Positions 17,216 through 23,689 of a stretch of 41,127 bases of DNA are shown one piece after another. The notes beneath the pieces were generated by a model. The model made no database searches, had not been told where the DNA came from, and was given only the letters and a program-made list of their open reading frames with translations. A program made the position numbers and the translations under genes. The stretch comes from Rhodothermus sp. (GTDB taxonomy: Bacteria > Bacteroidota > Rhodothermia > Rhodothermales > Rhodothermaceae), in the NCBI GenBank assembly GCA_015487635.1, contig WFPM01000216.1, forward strand, positions 1 to 41,127. Reading direction: 5' to 3'. Numbering within the stretch: the stretch's first letter is position 1; every line of letters starts with the position of its first letter.

Positions 17216-17665
17216 CTACCGGTTTGGAGCAGAGGACCAGTGGATGGCACCGATGCGCCAACCGTCGGGCGTGCGATGGAGCACCAGCAGTTCGGCACTG
17301 GACAGGTCGTAGGTGCGATCGCGATAGCTTCCCTGCAGTCGAGAGACGGTCGCTACGTAAGCCAGCGCCCCCGAAATATGCACCGTCTGCCAGGTGATGG
17401 TTCGCTTCATGGCCTGCAGAAAGGCCACATCCCGGGCATAGTGGTGCCCCAGATAATCACTTCGGGTTTCCCGGCGGCCACCTTCCAGAATCACGGCTTC
17501 ATCAAGGAGCAGAGCGGCCACCGTGGCACGGTCGCCTTCTGCCAGCGCTTCGTGAAAACGAGCGACCGTCTGCATCACGGCTGCTGAATCACGAGAAGAC
17601 GGTGCGACTGTTCCGGTAGCAAGAACCGATGTTATTAAGATCAACTGGGCAATCATAGTAAGCAA
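17216..17665 (-). CDS. Secreted NTF2-like (SnoaL/DUF4440-type) protein
   Basis: 149 residues. The N-terminal ~20 residues (MLTMIAQLILITSVLATGTV) form a likely signal peptide or membrane anchor. The rest follows the cone-shaped NTF2-like fold: SAAVMQTVARFHEALAEGDR, AALLLDEAVILEGGRRETR, SGALAYVATVSRLQGSYRDR and ELLVLHRTPDGWRIGAIHWS. Family members include enzymes and binding proteins; no catalytic residues are assignable here. It starts 2 bases after the DUF5676 gene and is the last gene of the apparent copper operon. The gene lies at the edge of the A/T-richer segment. A periplasmic function linked to metal stress is inferred from position only. Confidence 0.8.
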   Translation of the reverse strand: MLTMIAQLILITSVLATGTVAPSSRDSAAVMQTVARFHEALAEGDRATVAALLLDEAVILEGGRRETRSDYLGHHYARDVAFLQAMKRTITWQTVHISGALAYVATVSRLQGSYRDRTYDLSSAELLVLHRTPDGWRIGAIHWSSAPNR

Positions 17666-17667
17666 GG

Positions 17668-17934
17668 TTATTTTTTGGGATACCCCCAGCGACGAAAGAG
17701 CAAATTATAGATGACAGAAAACGTAAATCCAATATACACGCCCCATAAAAAGCTTTCAATCAGTCCCAACAGGAAACTTCCGAGACTGAGCCAAGAGAAA
17801 GCCGGCAAAACGGTTTCCAGAAATTGATGCATATGAATGGCTTCCGGTGTAATCAGGCCATAAAGCACACAGAGCAAGTAGCTGATCGCGGTAAAGATAC
17901 CCGCGCTCCACGTAACAAGTTTAACGTTAATCAT
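17668..17934 (-). CDS. DUF5676-family small membrane protein
   Basis: 88 residues with two clear hydrophobic segments (about 8-28 and 50-75) and a short basic tail ending RRWGYPKK. The pattern KLVTWSAGIFTAISYLLCVLYGL with a second helix containing GLIESFLWGVYIGFTFSVIYNLLFRRW fits DUF5676. I recall such proteins near heavy-metal ATPase genes, but I cannot search here. Two bases separate it from the 33-residue peptide upstream and two from the NTF2-like gene downstream, so translation is probably coupled. Biochemical function is unknown. Confidence 0.8.
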   Translation of the reverse strand: MINVKLVTWSAGIFTAISYLLCVLYGLITPEAIHMHQFLETVLPAFSWLSLGSFLLGLIESFLWGVYIGFTFSVIYNLLFRRWGYPKK

Positions 17935-17936
17935 GA

Positions 17937-18038
17937 TTAACTCTGATTTACGTTAGGATGGTTATGGCCAACCAGGTGCATAACGACGAAAGGTATCAGC
18001 ACTAGAACAAAAAACCAGTTGTCAATAAGCCATTCCAT
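17937..18038 (-). CDS. 33-residue membrane peptide (DUF2933-like small protein)
   Basis: A short gene with ATG at 18036-18038 and TAA at 17937-17939. The product starts MEWLIDNWFFVLVLIPFVVM and ends HLVGHNHPNVNQS. One hydrophobic helix (about residues 8-23) is followed by a His-containing tail (His21, His25, His27). This resembles the small MHLxGHGH-type peptides (DUF2933) that I recall beside copper and other metal-efflux genes. An AGGA-like ribosome site (AGGAATCCTC) precedes the ATG. It sits 12 bases after the FAD oxidoreductase gene and 2 bases before the DUF5676 gene, in the same direction. I infer a membrane accessory or metal-binding peptide. Confidence 0.7.
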   Translation of the reverse strand: MEWLIDNWFFVLVLIPFVVMHLVGHNHPNVNQS

Positions 18039-18050
18039 GAGGATTCCTGT

Positions 18051-19223
18051 TTACCGAGTTGTTTTAAGATAGCGTTGTACACATTGCTCCATAGCTGTCT
18101 TGTCCATATGTTTCCCATGTTTGCACCACAGGCAGGTACAGGACGTTTCTTCACAGCTTTGTTCGCGTAGATGAGGGTGAATACGACGTCGGGCAATTTC
18201 ATAGAGCAGTCGTTTAGAAGGAGAGGGTTGGTAGAGCTCACGGAGTTTGCCGAGTACGTCGGCGTTGGCCATGTGCCGTAAAACCCAGGTGTATCCGTGG
18301 TTGCCAAGCTGGCTATAGAGAAGGCGATTTGCTAAAGAAGCTTCTATCCAAGGCACAAGGTGTTGCTTGCACCAGGTGTCATAGTCGGCATTTTCAATAA
18401 TAGCTCGTGCTGCCAGATAGCCCGACCACAGAGCATACCGAAGACCGAAACCCCATAGTGCGTCCTGAAAACCTGCTCGTTCGCCCACAAAGTAGAGGCG
18501 ATTGTTCCGGGTCCAGGAAGAACGGATCTCAAAATTCGCATAGCCACCAAAGGTGCGAGGCGCTCGTACGTCCAGTTGGACCACTTTACTTACAGCGTCC
18601 AACGTACGTTCGAGATACCAATGGGCTAATGGGAAATCGTCGAAAAGGCAGGTGGCCAGTGTGGCTTTCCCTTGGTGGATTAGTAGATAGGCATAACCGC
18701 GGGGTGCAATACGGTCGTCCAGAAATCCAAAACAGGCATCCGGATGGCTGGTTTCGAAAACAATCCCCCGGGCAATGGCATCAGCGGCATAGGGACCTGT
18801 TGCTACAATTACTTTATCTGCTGTTGCATGGGTAATGCGCCGACCAAAGCGGATCTCAACCCCTGCATCTAGGGCTTGCTGTTTGAGGCCATGATCCAGA
18901 GTGCCGGGAGCGCTGCCTCGTTCGACCAGATAGAACCAAGGGCGATTGGTGCGAATGTCAAAACGCTCAAGACCAGGGCCATAAAATATACCGCCGCTAT
19001 AAGGTACACAGCGAAAATTGATAGCTATGCCGATAGATTTTAGGAAGCTGAGCACATCTTCAGGCGTGGACCAGTTTTCTAAACCCTGAAAGTCACCATG
19101 AAAGCGTTGACCGACATCTTGCGCTTGCTCAAACACCACCGGCTTGAAACCGGCGCGGGCTAAAGTTAACGCTGCAGTTAAACCGGCTGGACCGGCACCT
19201 ACAATGTGGATCTCGTTTTTCAT
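18051..19223 (-). CDS. FAD-dependent oxidoreductase with Cys-rich C-terminal tail
   Basis: 390 residues from the ATG at 19221-19223. That start overlaps the upstream cupredoxin stop by 4 bases (ATGA) and puts the dinucleotide-binding motif IHIVGAGPAGLTAAL at residues 5-19. A frame open to 19283 would add 20 residues unlike the family. GERAGFQDALWGFGLRYAL looks like the second FAD-contacting segment of geranylgeranyl-reductase/PHBH-type flavoproteins. The last ~35 residues hold Cys357, 362, 364, 367 and 381 plus His residues (C-x4-C-x-C-x2-C), a likely metal-binding appendage. The gene is conspicuously A/T-richer than the chromosome around it (18061-18120 has 24 G/C of 60). A redox role in copper handling is inferred from context; the substrate is unknown. 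Confidence 0.82.
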   Translation of the reverse strand: MKNEIHIVGAGPAGLTAALTLARAGFKPVVFEQAQDVGQRFHGDFQGLENWSTPEDVLSFLKSIGIAINFRCVPYSGGIFYGPGLERFDIRTNRPWFYLVERGSAPGTLDHGLKQQALDAGVEIRFGRRITHATADKVIVATGPYAADAIARGIVFETSHPDACFGFLDDRIAPRGYAYLLIHQGKATLATCLFDDFPLAHWYLERTLDAVSKVVQLDVRAPRTFGGYANFEIRSSWTRNNRLYFVGERAGFQDALWGFGLRYALWSGYLAARAIIENADYDTWCKQHLVPWIEASLANRLLYSQLGNHGYTWVLRHMANADVLGKLRELYQPSPSKRLLYEIARRRIHPHLREQSCEETSCTCLWCKHGKHMDKTAMEQCVQRYLKTTR

Positions 19224-19618
19224 GGCCGGGAGTGCAGATGCTCCGACACAATGAGTGCCCCTTTCATGCGTCCAAGGGCACACGAAAAAGTGAAAGTGCC
19301 GGGTGATGCAGGAAACAATTCTACCTGAGCCTGTGCGGTATGATCAAAGTAGACTTTTTTGCCGAAGGCTAGCAGGTGCAGGCGTCCCGTACAAGCAGGG
19401 GCTTCTGGCTGGCGATAAAACGTCAAGCGTACCGGATAACCTGCTTTTACCCGAACGCGACGAGGGTGGAAAGCATCGGCTCCTATGACAATATGCGCTT
19501 CCTGATATCCATCCCCGCTTGGCGAAGCATCTACGCACCGCCCCTGCCATGGCCAGAAAAGGAGCACGATAAGAAGTAGGCCTGCCAGGCCCGTGGCTAT
19601 TAGCCAGATACTTGTCAT
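19220..19618 (-). CDS. Membrane-anchored cupredoxin-like protein
   Basis: 132 residues. An N-terminal hydrophobic anchor (about 4-24) is followed by a periplasmic domain with the beta-sandwich pattern of cupredoxins: AFHPRRVRVKAGYPVRLTFYR (49-69) and ELFPASPGTFTFSCALGRMKGALIV (100-124). Candidate copper ligands are Cys76, His81, Cys113 and Met118. The FSCALGRMKG loop parallels the FxCxMxMxxG loop of small copper-export cupredoxins. The full type-1 His-Cys-His-Met set is not clear, so an electron-transfer centre is unproven; copper binding or delivery is more likely. Its stop overlaps the start of the FAD oxidoreductase by 4 bases, and the CopB gene ends 73 bases upstream. Confidence 0.85.
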   Translation of the reverse strand: MTSIWLIATGLAGLLLIVLLFWPWQGRCVDASPSGDGYQEAHIVIGADAFHPRRVRVKAGYPVRLTFYRQPEAPACTGRLHLLAFGKKVYFDHTAQAQVELFPASPGTFTFSCALGRMKGALIVSEHLHSRP

Positions 19619-19691
19619 GATCGTATGACTTTGCCAGCTGGTCTGCCTCTATACAGACGCCAGACAGATTATTGAGATTACAGAACCAGCA

Positions 19692-21773
19692 TCATTTTTC
19701 GACCTTCAAAAAACGGGCGTTGATTGAAACGATCACGGTACTGGCCGACATGAACACGGCTGCCACTGCCGGTCCCAGTAGCAGCCCCAGCTTGTAGAGC
19801 ACGCCGGCGGCCAGTGGAATGGCAATGATGTTGTAGCCGGCCGCCCACCAGAGGTTCTGCACCATCTTGCGGTAGGTGGCGCGGCTCAGGCGCAGAATCG
19901 ACACCACGTCGCGTGGATCGTTGCGCACAAGCACGATGTCGGCCGTCTCGATGGCCACATCGGTACCGGCACCGATGGCAATGCCGACATCGGCCTGGGC
20001 CAGCGCCGGCGCGTCGTTGATGCCGTCGCCCACCATGGCCACGCGCAGGCCGCGCTGTTGGACTTCCTTGACCTTAGCCGCTTTCTGGTCAGGAAGCACT
20101 TCGGCGAAATAGTCGTCCAGGCCGATTTCACGGGCGACCCAGGCAGCCACGCGGCGGTTGTCGCCGGTGAGCATCATCACCTGCAGCCCCATCGCTTTGA
20201 GCTGGCGCACGGCCTCTTTCGATTCTGGACGGATCACGTCGGCCAGCGCAATCGCCCCGGCTACCTGTCCGTCCCGGACGACAAACACCACCGTTTTACC
20301 CTGTTCGGACAGCCGGTCTACGCGTTCATCCTGCACCTCCAGACCATGCTCGCGCAGATAGCCCGGACTGACCACGCGGACTTCCTCGCCATTGACGCGG
20401 GCTCGGGCTCCTTTGCCCGGGATAGCCTCGAAGTCCTCGGCGGCCGGGGGATGCGCCACGGCTTCGACGATGCCGCGGGCAATCGGGTGTTCAGAATGCT
20501 GCTCCACGGCCGCTGCCAGCTTCAGCAGTTCGTCCTCGGAGAGCCCATCCTGGAAAACCAGCGTATCGGTTACGCCAAAGCGTCCTTCGGTGAGCGTGCC
20601 GGTTTTGTCGAAGATCACCGCCTGCAGATTGCGTGCGTTTTCAAACGCCGTGCGGTCTCGGATAAGCAACCCATGCCGGGCCGAAAGTGCCGTGGAAACG
20701 GCCACCACCAGCGGTACGGCCAGCCCCAGCGCATGCGGACAGGCGATCACCATGACGGTTACCATGCGCTCCAGCGCAAAGTCGAACGGCTGGCCCATGA
20801 CCAGCGTCCAGACGGCCAGCGTCAGGGCGCCGCCTCCCAGCGCTACGGCGGTCAGCCAGCGGGCGGCCCGATTGGCCAGGTCCTGCGTGCGCGATTTACT
20901 TTCCTGTGCCTGGCGAACCAGTTCGATCACCTGCGACAGGTAGCTTTCGGCACCGGTTTTCTGCACCTCAATCGTAAGCGAGCCTTCACCGTTAATGGCA
21001 CCGCCGATCACCGGATCACCGACCTTCTTTTCGACCGGCGCCGATTCGCCGGTAAGCAGCGCTTCGTTGACCGTGGTGTGGCCTTCGACGATCACGCCGT
21101 CGGCCGGGATTTTTTCGCCGGGGCGCACCAGTACGCGATCGCCCACCTGCAACTGATCGAGCGGTACATCCTGGATCGAGCCATCTGGCATCACCTTGTG
21201 GGCCTCGGTCGGCATCAGACGAGCCAGCTCTTCCAGCGCCCGTGACGCTCCCAGCACCGAACGCATCTCGATCCAGTGCCCCAGCAGCATCACATCGATC
21301 AGCGTGGCCAGCTCCCAGAAAAAGATTTTTCCGGCCAGTCCGAACACCACTGCGCTCGAGTAGAGATAGGCCACGCTGATGGCGATGGCGATGAGCGTCA
21401 TCATGCCCGGATTGCGCCGGCGCAGCTCATCGGCAAAACCTTTCAGGAATGGCCAGCCGCCGTAGAAAAACACGACAGAAGACAGCGCCCAGAGCACCCA
21501 TAGGTCGCCCGGAAAGCGCAGGGCATCGCCCAGTCCCAGGAAGGCCTGGATCATGGGCGAAAGCGCCAGAATTGGTACCGTCAGCGCCAGCGAAATCCAG
21601 AACCGCCGCCGAAAATCTTCCACCATGTGCGCATGATGCGCATGGTGGTCGTGGTGGTCGTGGTGGTCGTGATGGTCGGGCTTTTGATGGGCGGGAGCGT
21701 GATGCCCGGTATGATCATGGTGTTCGTGCGCATGATGCGTGTGAGCATGGGAGGATTGGTCATGCGGGGCCAT
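19692..21773 (-). CDS. copB: CopB-type copper-translocating P-type ATPase
   Basis: 693 residues, close to CopB of Archaeoglobus fulgidus. The first ~50 residues are a His/Asp-rich metal-binding tail with no CxxC domain. Core motifs: TGES (241-244, actuator), CPH in MVIACPHALGLAVP (345-347, transmembrane metal site), DKTGTLTEG with phosphorylated Asp389, SEHP (427-430), MLTGDNRRVA and VGDGINDAPALAQADVGIA (581-599). YNIIAIPLAAG and MSASTVIVSINA are the last helices. CPH instead of CPC places it in the P1B-3 (CopB) group, which exports copper (Cu2+ preferred in characterised members) across the inner membrane. It follows the sigma-factor gene by 30 bases. Its base composition is chromosome-like, unlike the A/T-richer genes downstream. 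Confidence 0.96.
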   Translation of the reverse strand: MAPHDQSSHAHTHHAHEHHDHTGHHAPAHQKPDHHDHHDHHDHHAHHAHMVEDFRRRFWISLALTVPILALSPMIQAFLGLGDALRFPGDLWVLWALSSVVFFYGGWPFLKGFADELRRRNPGMMTLIAIAISVAYLYSSAVVFGLAGKIFFWELATLIDVMLLGHWIEMRSVLGASRALEELARLMPTEAHKVMPDGSIQDVPLDQLQVGDRVLVRPGEKIPADGVIVEGHTTVNEALLTGESAPVEKKVGDPVIGGAINGEGSLTIEVQKTGAESYLSQVIELVRQAQESKSRTQDLANRAARWLTAVALGGGALTLAVWTLVMGQPFDFALERMVTVMVIACPHALGLAVPLVVAVSTALSARHGLLIRDRTAFENARNLQAVIFDKTGTLTEGRFGVTDTLVFQDGLSEDELLKLAAAVEQHSEHPIARGIVEAVAHPPAAEDFEAIPGKGARARVNGEEVRVVSPGYLREHGLEVQDERVDRLSEQGKTVVFVVRDGQVAGAIALADVIRPESKEAVRQLKAMGLQVMMLTGDNRRVAAWVAREIGLDDYFAEVLPDQKAAKVKEVQQRGLRVAMVGDGINDAPALAQADVGIAIGAGTDVAIETADIVLVRNDPRDVVSILRLSRATYRKMVQNLWWAAGYNIIAIPLAAGVLYKLGLLLGPAVAAVFMSASTVIVSINARFLKVEK
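21644..21679 (-). repeat. 9-base tandem repeat encoding the His-rich tail of CopB
   Basis: GGTGGTCGT occurs three times perfectly plus a fourth imperfect unit. On the minus strand it encodes repeated His-Asp-His triplets (residues about 33-43). It could change length by slippage and so vary the number of metal-binding histidines. Confidence 0.75.
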
Positions 21774-21803
21774 GGCTGTTTCCGGTTGGTTGTGCTTTTT
21801 CTT

Positions 21804-22346
21804 TCAGCAACGGCAATCGGCGTGATTCTGGGGGATGCACTCCGTGCAGAGGTCTTCCAGACGCGCTCTGAGTTGACGGCGCGCTCGATGAAGGCGCACG
21901 TTCAGGTTATTGCGCGTGATGCCCAGCTGTTGTGCCACTTTCCGAGGGTCTTCTCCCTCAAGATCTATTTTTTCAATTAAGAAACGGTAGTCTTCTTTCA
22001 GGGAAGGAAGCAGCGCACGAAAGCATTCACAGATCAGAGTAGCATCTTCGGGAGGAATCACTTCCTGTTCGGCTATATAGTCGGCCATATAGGTTTGATA
22101 CGCCCGTTGCTCGCGGGCGCGTTGGCGCTGCACATCCACAATAGCATGCTGTACGATGCGGTAAAACCACGGCACCAGTTTTTCACGGCTCCGCAGACCT
22201 GGGGCAGCCTGTAATGCCTTGAGCAGGCTATTATGCAAAATGTCTTCAGCCATCTGGGGATCAGATACTTTCTGTTGAATATACTGCAACAGGCGCTGGC
22301 GCCCTTCGGCAAGTAACACTTCCAGTTGCTGATCTATGGAAGTCAT
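21804..22346 (-). CDS. ECF-type RNA polymerase sigma factor with Cys/His-rich C-terminal tail
   Basis: 180 residues. Region 2 spans about 15-80 (VSDPQMAEDILHNSLLKALQ, KLVPWFYRIVQHAIVDVQR) and region 4 about 108-160 (IEKIDLEGEDPRKVAQQLGI, TRNNLNVRLHRARRQLRARL). The last residues carry Cys167, Cys170, His175, Cys178 and Cys180 (pattern C-T-E-C ... H-A-D-C-R-C), and the linker has Cys106 and Cys108 (CEC). Cys-rich tails of this kind occur in metal-sensing ECF factors such as copper-responsive CorE of Myxococcus, which need no anti-sigma factor; none is encoded nearby. Being 30 bases upstream of copB, it is probably the direct copper-responsive regulator of this operon. The gene is A/T-richer than the chromosome. 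Confidence 0.88.
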   Translation of the reverse strand: MTSIDQQLEVLLAEGRQRLLQYIQQKVSDPQMAEDILHNSLLKALQAAPGLRSREKLVPWFYRIVQHAIVDVQRQRAREQRAYQTYMADYIAEQEVIPPEDATLICECFRALLPSLKEDYRFLIEKIDLEGEDPRKVAQQLGITRNNLNVRLHRARRQLRARLEDLCTECIPQNHADCRC

Positions 22347-22389
22347 AGCCGGTTCTCCTGCTTGCCATACAGCGTTAATGGAATCCTAT

Positions 22390-22437
22390 GGTCGTCTTTC
22401 ATTAGGAATAGACGCTGGACGACCTGTAATGATTACA
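22390..22437 (-). promoter_or_regulatory. Palindrome and hairpin upstream of the sigma-factor gene
   Basis: TGTAAT-G-ATTACA (22425-22437) is a perfect 13-base palindrome overlapping the stop of the DUF2231 gene. GGTCGTC (22390-22396) and GACGACC (22418-22424) form a 7 bp inverted repeat with a 21-base spacer next to it. Together they occupy most of the 86-base gap before the sigma gene and could be an operator or an RNA hairpin controlling sigma/copB expression separately from DUF2231. Confidence 0.4.
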
Positions 22438-23509
22438 TCATGGGCATTGCCGTAATCGGTCGGGCGCTCAGTAGGCTCAGTTTTATAATGCCCTTGCCTT
22501 TCAAGTATAGCCCAGCCGGGCCGGGGTTGGCTGCAGGACCATGTCCATGGACCAGCAGACGACCATTCACGTACCCACGAAAGTGGGTACCATAGGCAAC
22601 GGCCCGCACCTCAAGCCATCCTTTTTCTTGCAGGGGGGCCTCGTCAAAAAGACGTATTTGACCGTTTATGAGCCGCCCCTGGCGAATGGAAGTGGCACCA
22701 ATCTCTACAAAATCATAATTCTTAGCATCCTGCAGATGATAAACCAACCGAACAATTCCCTGCAGGCTATCGCGGTGCAAACGGGCCGTAATTTCAGTCC
22801 CGGATAGCGAGCCCGGTCCGGTAAACAGAAGCTCCTGATCGGTCAGCCCCAGGGATAGGCCTTCGGCTCCGCTCTGAGCCTTCACCTCGGTGAAATCGCC
22901 CGCTTGCAGGGCAAATGAATCGACAAGCACCTGTTCGGCACCCGGGCCGGGCATCCAATGCCAGCCTCCGTCAGGTAGCTGCTCGAATTGTGCAGCAGCC
23001 AACAGGAGGCGGAGCTGTTGCGCTAAGGAATCGCGCTCTGCTTCCAGTTCATGGACGGTGGAAACGCCCAGCCCATGGGCATAGACCAGTTCGGCACCAC
23101 GCTCGCCGGTCTGGTAGACCAGCCACAGGCCGCCTGCTCCCAGAAGGAACAAAAGGCCGTGTACCCATCCTGCACGGGCCAGCGGGTGGCGCCACCAGGC
23201 CAGCACCAGACGGACCAGCGCAAGGATACCGAAGAACCAGAGGGTGCGTTCGGCCCAGTCGGCGTGCGTGGTGACGGCCGGAATGACCGCCGTGGGCAGG
23301 TCCAAGCTGTCGGCCGCAGCCCGTCCGGTCAGAAAAGCCACCAGCGCCGAAATAGCACCCAGCGCATAGAGCACGGCCGTTACCCGTAGCAAAGCCACCG
23401 GCCGGCCCAGCAGCCAGGTAACCAGGTCAAATCCGACGGCCAGAAAAAGCAGGGCGATGGGAAAATGCACGACCAGCGGATGCAGGTTCGGTGCCCAGTC
23501 AGGAAGCAT
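22433..23509 (-). CDS. DUF2231 membrane protein with C-terminal lectin-like (LamG-type) domain
   Basis: 358 residues. The N-terminal ~150 residues are a DUF2231 module with four hydrophobic helices and conserved-looking histidines: NLHPLVVHFPIALLFLAVGF (8-27), the TGRAAADSLDLP and THADWAER loops, and GAELVYAHGLGVSTVHELEA (138-157). A short coiled segment follows (about 155-172). Residues about 180-350 look like a concanavalin A/LamG-type sandwich: QAGDFTEVKAQSG, GIVRLVYHLQDAKNYDFVEI, EKGWLEVRAVAYGTHFRGYVNGRLLVHG and GPAGLYLKGKG. The domain combination is unusual to me. It is the first gene of the run leading into sigma and copB, 86 bases before sigma, and may be cotranscribed. Function is unknown; the histidines could bind heme or metal. 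Confidence 0.78.
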   Translation of the reverse strand: MLPDWAPNLHPLVVHFPIALLFLAVGFDLVTWLLGRPVALLRVTAVLYALGAISALVAFLTGRAAADSLDLPTAVIPAVTTHADWAERTLWFFGILALVRLVLAWWRHPLARAGWVHGLLFLLGAGGLWLVYQTGERGAELVYAHGLGVSTVHELEAERDSLAQQLRLLLAAAQFEQLPDGGWHWMPGPGAEQVLVDSFALQAGDFTEVKAQSGAEGLSLGLTDQELLFTGPGSLSGTEITARLHRDSLQGIVRLVYHLQDAKNYDFVEIGATSIRQGRLINGQIRLFDEAPLQEKGWLEVRAVAYGTHFRGYVNGRLLVHGHGPAANPGPAGLYLKGKGIIKLSLLSARPITAMPMM

Positions 23510-23565: not shown

Positions 23566-23689
23566 AACATCCTGTATCCAACCTTAAAATTCGTTAAGCT
23601 CTCGCAAAGGTGCGGGTCAGGCGAAACCCGCTTTTCGGCGGGATCGTTTCGAGCACGGCGAAATCGCTTCCAATCAATCCGAATGCACC

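Follow-up and report, generated by a model that had tools for sequence, protein, structure and literature searches.

We analysed a window of 41,127 nucleotides, contig WFPM01000216.1 (C216) of a Rhodothermus sp. genome (3.03 Mb, 233 contigs), in which eight genes at 17216-23509 on the minus strand surround a sigma factor of the extracytoplasmic function (ECF) type. The genes most likely form a copper-detoxification locus that is switched on by its own CorE-like sigma factor, and the sigma factor itself is probably the copper sensor, acting through its cysteine tail. An initial annotation, made from the DNA letters, had already proposed a copper cluster with this Cys-tailed sigma factor as the likely sensor. 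The idea gained support from homologues in other genomes: of the 17 places with a Cys-tailed relative, 16 have a P-type ATPase close by. Below, labels beginning with L denote loci and those beginning with G denote genomes; published work is cited from excerpts of the papers.

The sigma factor and its neighbourhood

The sigma factor consists of regions 2 and 4 only (Sigma70_r2, 35.0 bits; Sigma70_r4_2, 39.2 bits; both above cut-off). Between the two domains lies a linker CXC motif, C106-E-C108, and the protein terminates at the last cysteine (C180) of a four-cysteine tail. In an alignment of the window protein with 19 chosen relatives, from which the motif-less SigZ-like proteins of L037 and L038 were left out, all six cysteines (two in the linker, four in the tail) are invariant in 20 out of 20 rows. 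The tail spacing C-x2-C-x7-C-x-C occurs in 18 rows, with x5 in L032 and L034. The window spacing equals that of C181, C184, C192 and C194 of CorE, four cysteines kept in all 21 members of the group according to the excerpt of the CorE paper (PMC3107203). Additionally, a linker CXC is described as a hallmark of the former ECF44 group (PMC8999054).

A midpoint-rooted tree was built with the CXC and tail columns removed; L028, which nearly duplicates L027, and the incomplete L039 were left out of it. In this tree 26 motif-bearing rows and one plasmid row fell on one side of a 100/99 branch. On the other side were three SigZ-like rows and five further ECF sigma factors of the same genome, taken from the 10 others found there. 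On the motif-bearing side are plasmid-encoded proteins from Phenylobacterium zucineum, Roseobacter litoralis and Roseovarius AK1035 (filed under TM1035). All three organisms appear in the published list of the CorE group (PMC3107203), and from organism and gene order we infer that the plasmid rows are the same genes as those on that list. Membership of the SigZ family (TIGR02959) was rejected (98.9 bits against a cut-off of 168.65). On the hallmarks tested, the sigma factor thus probably belongs to the CorE-like group (former ECF44, now ECF238). An AlphaFold model reached a mean predicted local distance difference test (pLDDT) of 80.0 and a predicted template modelling score (pTM) of 0.43; residues 171-180 fall below 50 pLDDT, and the model is uninformative on metal geometry.

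A match to the sigma factor at E 1e-15 was present in 14 out of 60 genomes, its own included, and two of these (L037, L038) lack the CXC and the tail. The remaining 12 genomes hold 17 motif-bearing sigma places. At 16 of them, including the window's own, a P-type ATPase lies within the fetched stretch, and at the single place without one the sigma gene itself is cut by the contig start. The ATPases near sigma homologues are 41-95% identical to the window CopB (the copy in L030 is cut by the contig edge). Linkage of copper genes with the sigma factor recurs in other families and phyla. A phylum-wide draw gave a sigma match in 7 of 296 genomes at 1e-20, and a profile search at 1e-28 gave 8 of 395 phylum genomes, one of which (G155) lacks the motif. 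In L072 the ATPase is adjacent to the sigma gene, and in L073 there is none within 9.7 kb. Among 72,556 plasmid records, 33 match the sigma factor. The scan of contigs also found one distant Bacteroidetes locus, L021, which was left out of later comparisons.

Within the genus, the sigma factor, ATPase, cupredoxin and flavoprotein occur together in three out of six genus-mates (L023, L024, L026), a recurrence that, with the relatives of the 33-residue peptide in nine other loci, speaks against chance gene predictions. In all three the order sigma factor, CopB, cupredoxin, flavoprotein, SnoaL is kept. The genus-mate locus L022 shows only DUF2231, a methyltransferase, the sigma factor and CopB. 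The genomic site is the same in genus-mates, with a thiolase flank in L022, L023, L026 and L063.

Two side observations concern sigma factors of other groups. At five loci in two other families (L032, 8001-8760 as scanned; L033; L034; L035; L036), a CXC-and-tail sigma gene adjoining a P-type ATPase continues in frame into a heavy-metal-associated (HMA) domain with the motif GMTCGGC; a partial sixth is present in L039. Pfam recognised HMA with E 2.9e-7 in L032, the one locus scanned, and the predicted products are sigma factors joined to a copper-chaperone-like domain. In L043 (5548-7516), the matches to a copper-type ATPase beside the sigma gene of Candidatus Manganitrophus fall in two frames; the ATPase is annotated as a hypothetical protein plus a HAD hydrolase.

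Gene layout and a putative promoter signature

The features of the block, in gene order, are as follows.

22433..23509, minus strand: DUF2231 membrane protein, possibly with a LamG-like C-terminal part (Pfam PF09990, 54.2 bits)
22410..22436, minus strand: P1, putative sigma-dependent promoter GTAA-N18-CGTCT; equivalent site in L022, L023, L024 and L026
21804..22346, minus strand: CorE-like ECF sigma factor, 180 residues; CXC C106/C108, tail C167-x2-C170-x7-C178-x-C180
19692..21773, minus strand: CopB-type copper P-type ATPase with His-rich N-terminus and CPH motif (TIGR01511, 654.8 bits, cut-off 397)
19655..19681, minus strand: P2, putative sigma-dependent promoter GTAA-N18-CGTCT; ambiguous in genus-mates
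19220..19618, minus strand: CupA-like cupredoxin with hydrophobic N-terminus (phmmer to 2mry/4f2e, E 5.6e-7)
18051..19223, minus strand: flavoprotein of geranylgeranyl-reductase-like fold, tail C357-x4-C362-x-C364-x2-C367 (fold and alignment)
17937..18038, minus strand: 33-residue membrane peptide, MEWLxENW...MHLFGH family (DUF2933-like), with relatives in nine other loci
17668..17934, minus strand: DUF5676 two-helix membrane protein (PF18926, 54.6 bits, cut-off 27.6)
17216..17665, minus strand: SnoaL/DUF4440 NTF2-like protein (Pfam); transcript membership uncertain

All eight open reading frames (ORFs) of the initial annotation are present. Counted from DUF2231, the spacings are 86, 30 and 73 bases, a 4-base overlap (cupredoxin/flavoprotein), and 12, 2 and 2 bases. 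The overlap and 2-base gaps that it had cited are therefore seen in the coordinates, and its description of genes running almost without gaps holds for the last five genes but not for the first three joints. It had also counted metal-binding features in at least five products, in agreement with the candidate ligands (Cys or His clusters) that we found in the sigma factor, ATPase, cupredoxin, flavoprotein and 33-residue peptide. Pfam hits in the block are DUF2231, Sigma70_r2/r4_2, E1-E2_ATPase, Cupredoxin_1, flavin adenine dinucleotide (FAD) folds, DUF5676 and DUF4440. For the supposed DUF2231-lectin protein this confirmed DUF2231, and the lectin part came down to a weak LamG-like match (E 0.06). 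The SnoaL/DUF4440 gene starts with TTG or, alternatively, with ATG 9 bases further in. An Rfam scan of the window gave no family in the block (its two matches in the window are transfer RNAs), and a generic scan for sigma-70 promoters and terminators stayed close to chance (3 against 2.7 and 9 against 6.9).

Comparison of intergenic stretches from the window and its genus-mates revealed the signature GTAATC...GCGTCT before the sigma gene (P1) and before the cupredoxin gene (P2). In the window, 18 bases separate GTAA from CGTCT at each site. P1 overlaps the DUF2231 stop codon, 63 bases upstream of the sigma start, and P2 lies 36 bases upstream of the cupredoxin start. Across the 3.03-Mb genome, GTAA-N17..19-CGTCTRT has three matches, two of them in this block; a reversed-pattern control has two.

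The signature was then counted in 18 sigma-bearing loci (283 kb) that had not been used to spot it and do not include L023, L024 and L026. GTAA-N17-CGTCT gave 26 matches, with 25 different sequences among them, whereas 33 other spacings (5 to 40 minus 16-18) averaged 0.64 matches and never exceeded 2. The corresponding Poisson figure of about 1e-32 is too strong, as some of the plasmid islands are related. The matches are divided into 18 in six Alphaproteobacteria plasmid loci, 4 in nine Rhodothermia-type loci of other families, 2 in a Nitrospirota locus and 2 in two other Bacteroidota loci. At least one match occurs in 10 of the 18 loci, which span three phyla. A further single match, at N16, is found in L072. 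Nineteen copper loci without the sigma factor (254 kb) gave no N17 match.

In 11 whole genomes, GTAA-N17..18-CGTCTRT matched 21 times and its reversed control 17 times. Eight of the 21 matches are at sigma-bearing copper loci, and a ninth precedes an ATPase gene in G054, where the contig breaks off ahead of the sigma gene; the other 12 are at chance level, given the control. This stricter pattern does not occur in genome G036, which carries three sigma genes with the CXC and tail motif. In one signature listing, 6 out of 36 matches were flagged within a long ORF. A literature search on the motif letters returned no paper on a CorE-like sigma factor by title, and the cross-phylum signature may extend an already known CorE motif.

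A single eight-gene operon, as the initial annotation had described the block, is doubtful. The promoter signature occurs inside it, before the sigma gene and again before the cupredoxin gene; the region upstream of DUF2231 is common to a genus-mate without a sigma match (G002); and in another (L023) an opposite-strand gene separates SnoaL from the flavoprotein. Because its upstream region is common to sigma-less G002 and carries no signature, DUF2231 probably has its own promoter, outside the predicted sigma-driven unit. DUF2231 is also kept beside CopB in sigma-less relatives. The DUF2231 gene of G002 itself looks broken, matching in two frames (L063, 6111-7165). Between DUF2231 and the divergent thiolase, at 23583-23598 of the window, lies a palindrome-like CTTAACGAATTTTAAG, present in the same or near form in genus-mates L023 and L026 and in sigma-less L063 (G002). 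It is possibly an operator of another regulator.

Proposed mechanism and competing explanations

In the proposed mechanism, excess copper would bind the C-terminal thiolates C167, C170, C178 and C180 of the sigma factor, perhaps together with H175 and the linker CXC. The copper-bound sigma factor would become competent for promoter DNA without any anti-sigma factor; for CorE of Myxococcus xanthus, copper is reported to make the sigma factor competent for promoter DNA (PMC3107203). The holoenzyme would read GTAA-N18-CGTCT at P1 and drive the sigma and CopB genes, which would make the response self-amplifying, and it would probably also read P2, for the cupredoxin, the flavoprotein and the small peptides. 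Judging by their families, the CupA-like membrane cupredoxin would take up and reduce copper and pass Cu(I) on, the ATPase would export Cu(I), and the Cys-tailed flavoprotein and His-bearing membrane peptide would assist.

The ATPase passes the TIGR01511 copper-ATPase cut-off, and its CPH motif, together with a His-rich start, leads us to class it as CopB. The cupredoxin is related in sequence to CupA of Streptococcus pneumoniae. Its C76 and C113, invariant in 5 out of 5 rows, correspond to the Cu(I)-site cysteines C74 and C111, and Leu and Arg replace the second-site residues Met113 and Met115. CupA uses two cysteines to convert Cu(II) into Cu(I), and the excerpt of its paper gives the electron source as unknown (PMC5646241).

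Several observations weigh against a locus switched on by a copper-sensing, CorE-like sigma factor. Two genus-mates (G001, G002) have no sigma match at E 1e-15, and G002 retains DUF2231 and CopB without it. The N17 signature is missing in 8 of the 18 independent loci (L027, L029, L030, L032, L033, L034, L036, L072), among them seven of the nine Rhodothermia-type loci outside the genus. The window spacer is 18, against 17 in the cross-phylum loci, and one match at N18, the window's own spacing, is found in the sigma-less copper locus L102. CorE itself is absent from the sigma tree, as is CorE2. In L023 and L026 the sequence at P2 forms a strong hairpin that resembles a terminator (z -4.5 and -4.9). 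The window P2 has no such hairpin (z -1.2) and keeps both promoter elements. The P2-like signature of L023, L024 and L026 was set aside as unproven, since it sits in the hairpin (L023 and L026 were folded), and on sequence grounds P2 is a weaker candidate promoter than P1.

The last of these points concerns the metal. The position of CorE Cys189 is His175 in the window and His, Tyr or Phe in near relatives; therefore the inducing metal could differ. More distant relatives (e.g., L030, L031, L043, L072, L073) have Cys there. In CorE, Cys189 is reported to matter most for the response to copper, and only 11 of the 21 group members carry it (PMC3107203), so that it is not a defining feature of the CorE-like group. 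The same sensor logic could operate with zinc, cadmium or silver as the inducer; the activating metals of CorE2 are Cd(II) and Zn(II) (PMC9023288, PMC8999054). However, Cys174, reported to set CorE2 specificity (PMC9023288), is absent from the window protein, where Ile follows C170, and the neighbours of the sigma gene are a copper-type ATPase and a CupA-like cupredoxin. We consider another inducer unlikely.

Even less probable is a mosaic, in which genes with separate regulation came together by chance or island assembly and the sigma factor serves genes elsewhere. The genes differ in guanine-plus-cytosine (GC) content, from 0.40 (peptide) to 0.63 (CopB). Five of the six genus-mates have a CopB with 91-94% identity, but identity is no more than 69-70% for the flavoprotein, which is present in three. 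Gene content also differs among relatives, which vary in the last three genes of the block. Yet the positions before the sigma and cupredoxin genes account for two of the three signature matches in the genome, and the linkage recurs across families and phyla.

An ordinary anti-sigma factor holding the sigma factor in check, with DUF2231 (a membrane protein directly upstream, on the same strand) in that role, is very improbable: DUF2231 was rejected because its relatives occur in copper loci without a sigma factor (L063, L064, L067, L068, L070, L103, L108), Pfam found no anti-sigma family among the eight block proteins, and a methyltransferase gene separates DUF2231 from the sigma gene in four genus-mates. 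The copper-responsive, CorE-like locus remains the reading that we prefer.

Accessory genes, known systems and meaning

The nearest solved fold of the flavoprotein is 3oz2, of the geranylgeranyl reductase type (E 3.9e-19, template modelling score 0.63), and the protein, at 52.5 bits, does not reach the TIGR02032 cut-off of 158.8. An alignment of 15 rows shows the tail C-x4-C-x-C-x2-C unchanged in every one, and 9 out of 9 further Bacteroidota loci have it too. The structural model (pTM 0.77) is poor over residues 347-373, which include this tail. In the relatives set, the gene lies beside CopB in 10 out of 11 genomes, its own included, and beside the cupredoxin in the eleventh (G027). At 1e-60 it matches in 14 of 395 phylum genomes. 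Eight of nine Bacteroidota flavoprotein loci outside the order carry at least one other toolkit gene (ATPase, cupredoxin, methyltransferase or DUF5676); the ninth, L107, is a 7.5-kb contig without any. In G026, a tandem pair of flavoprotein copies stands beside CopB (L025, 633-2959).

Seven of the 72,556 plasmid records match the flavoprotein, and six of these also match the sigma factor. We examined four of the seven. In L046 a copper ATPase is close by. The stretches of L047 and L048 contain DUF5676, DUF2933 and the methyltransferase and lack a copper ATPase. L049 (Halomonas) has a YHS protein and neither the sigma factor nor a copper ATPase within 12 kb. As a side observation, the alphaproteobacterial plasmid loci L044-L048 jointly hold CorE-like sigma factors, FabI, cyclopropane-fatty-acid synthase, DUF3141, DUF5676, DUF2933 and several promoter signatures. 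These genes are perhaps a membrane-lipid stress regulon that goes beyond copper export alone.

A more speculative, rather unlikely extension is a closed copper-redox circuit. The flavoprotein would be the electron donor, acting as a cupric reductase via the CupA-like protein, and the resulting Cu(I) would serve both as substrate of the exporter and as the off signal for the sigma factor. Mercuric reductase offers an analogy for a flavoprotein in such a role. In the window, the CupA-like gene overlaps the gene of the flavoprotein with its invariant Cys tail, and Cu(II) is reported to activate CorE, whereas Cu(I) inactivates it (PMC3107203). If the circuit were true, the flavoprotein would represent a new copper reductase family across Bacteroidota and Proteobacteria.

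The 33-residue peptide has no hit above the Pfam cut-off. Relatives of 38 to 67 residues with the pattern MEWLxENW...MHLFGH are present in the nine other loci, and we therefore take the predicted gene to be real. The DUF2933 family (PF11666) scores the L045 relative at 19.4 bits, against a cut-off of 21, and does not match the L044 relative. In 6 of the nine other loci the peptide gene adjoins DUF5676. The two genes have GC contents of 0.40 and 0.43, compared to about 0.64 for the window, and they were not found in the genus-mates' stretches. This suggests that they were recently inserted as a pair (17668-18038).

The gene between DUF2231 and the sigma factor in four genus-mates is isoprenylcysteine-methyltransferase-like, and it also occurs near CopB in other families. 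It has no match in the window genome, an empty search that alone shows little. At 22347-22432 of the window its position is empty, so that the promoter signature adjoins the sigma gene.

The regulatory type itself is known. Like CorE and CorE2 of Myxococcus xanthus, the window protein is a two-domain ECF sigma factor with a linker CXC, identical tail cysteine spacing and no linked anti-sigma factor, and in both cases copB is among the genes controlled or adjoining. Unlike them, it has His at the Cys189 position, lacks the Cys174 of CorE2 and ends at the last tail cysteine. It also differs from CorE in its setting, a Rhodothermus genome, and in its neighbours, with a CupA-like cupredoxin and a flavoprotein in place of a multicopper oxidase; the 21 members given in the excerpt of the CorE paper represent four phyla, none of them Bacteroidota (PMC3107203).

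Three further systems resemble parts of the block. Islands with merR, copA, cupredoxin, DUF2933 and isoprenylcysteine methyltransferase genes are described from Alteromonas and others (PMC8478169). They share a copper ATPase, a cupredoxin and a short His-bearing membrane peptide with the window, and the methyltransferase with its four genus-mates. However, their regulator is of the MerR type rather than CorE-like, and the window adds the flavoprotein, DUF5676 and DUF2231 while its genome gives no methyltransferase match. The pneumococcal cop operon (CopY, CupA, CopA) likewise joins a membrane cupredoxin, with both Cu(I)-site cysteines conserved, to a copper ATPase; it uses the CopY repressor in place of a sigma activator, and the second-site methionines Met113 and Met115 of CupA are replaced in the window. 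Geranylgeranyl/digeranylgeranylglycerophospholipid reductases provide the nearest solved fold of the flavoprotein, which falls below their family cut-off and has, in contrast, an invariant four-Cys tail.

The initial annotation had regarded the combination of genes as undescribed. This was right only in part: control of copB by an ECF sigma factor with a Cys tail is already published for CorE (PMC3107203), whereas linkage of a CorE-like sigma factor with the flavoprotein, like the cross-phylum signature, is not named in the literature searched, where the flavoprotein was not a search term. The toolkit and the shared promoter mark look new enough to test.

According to the excerpt of a 2021 paper, experiments on this group had until then been confined to CorE and CorE2 (PMC8103513). 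A promoter signature common to three phyla would make CorE-like regulons partly predictable from sequence. The uncharacterised flavoprotein family could provide an answer to the question of the electron source for cupric reduction. Finally, a sigma factor of 180 residues from a probable thermophile, with a tail that ends at its last cysteine, would be a convenient structural target for metal activation.

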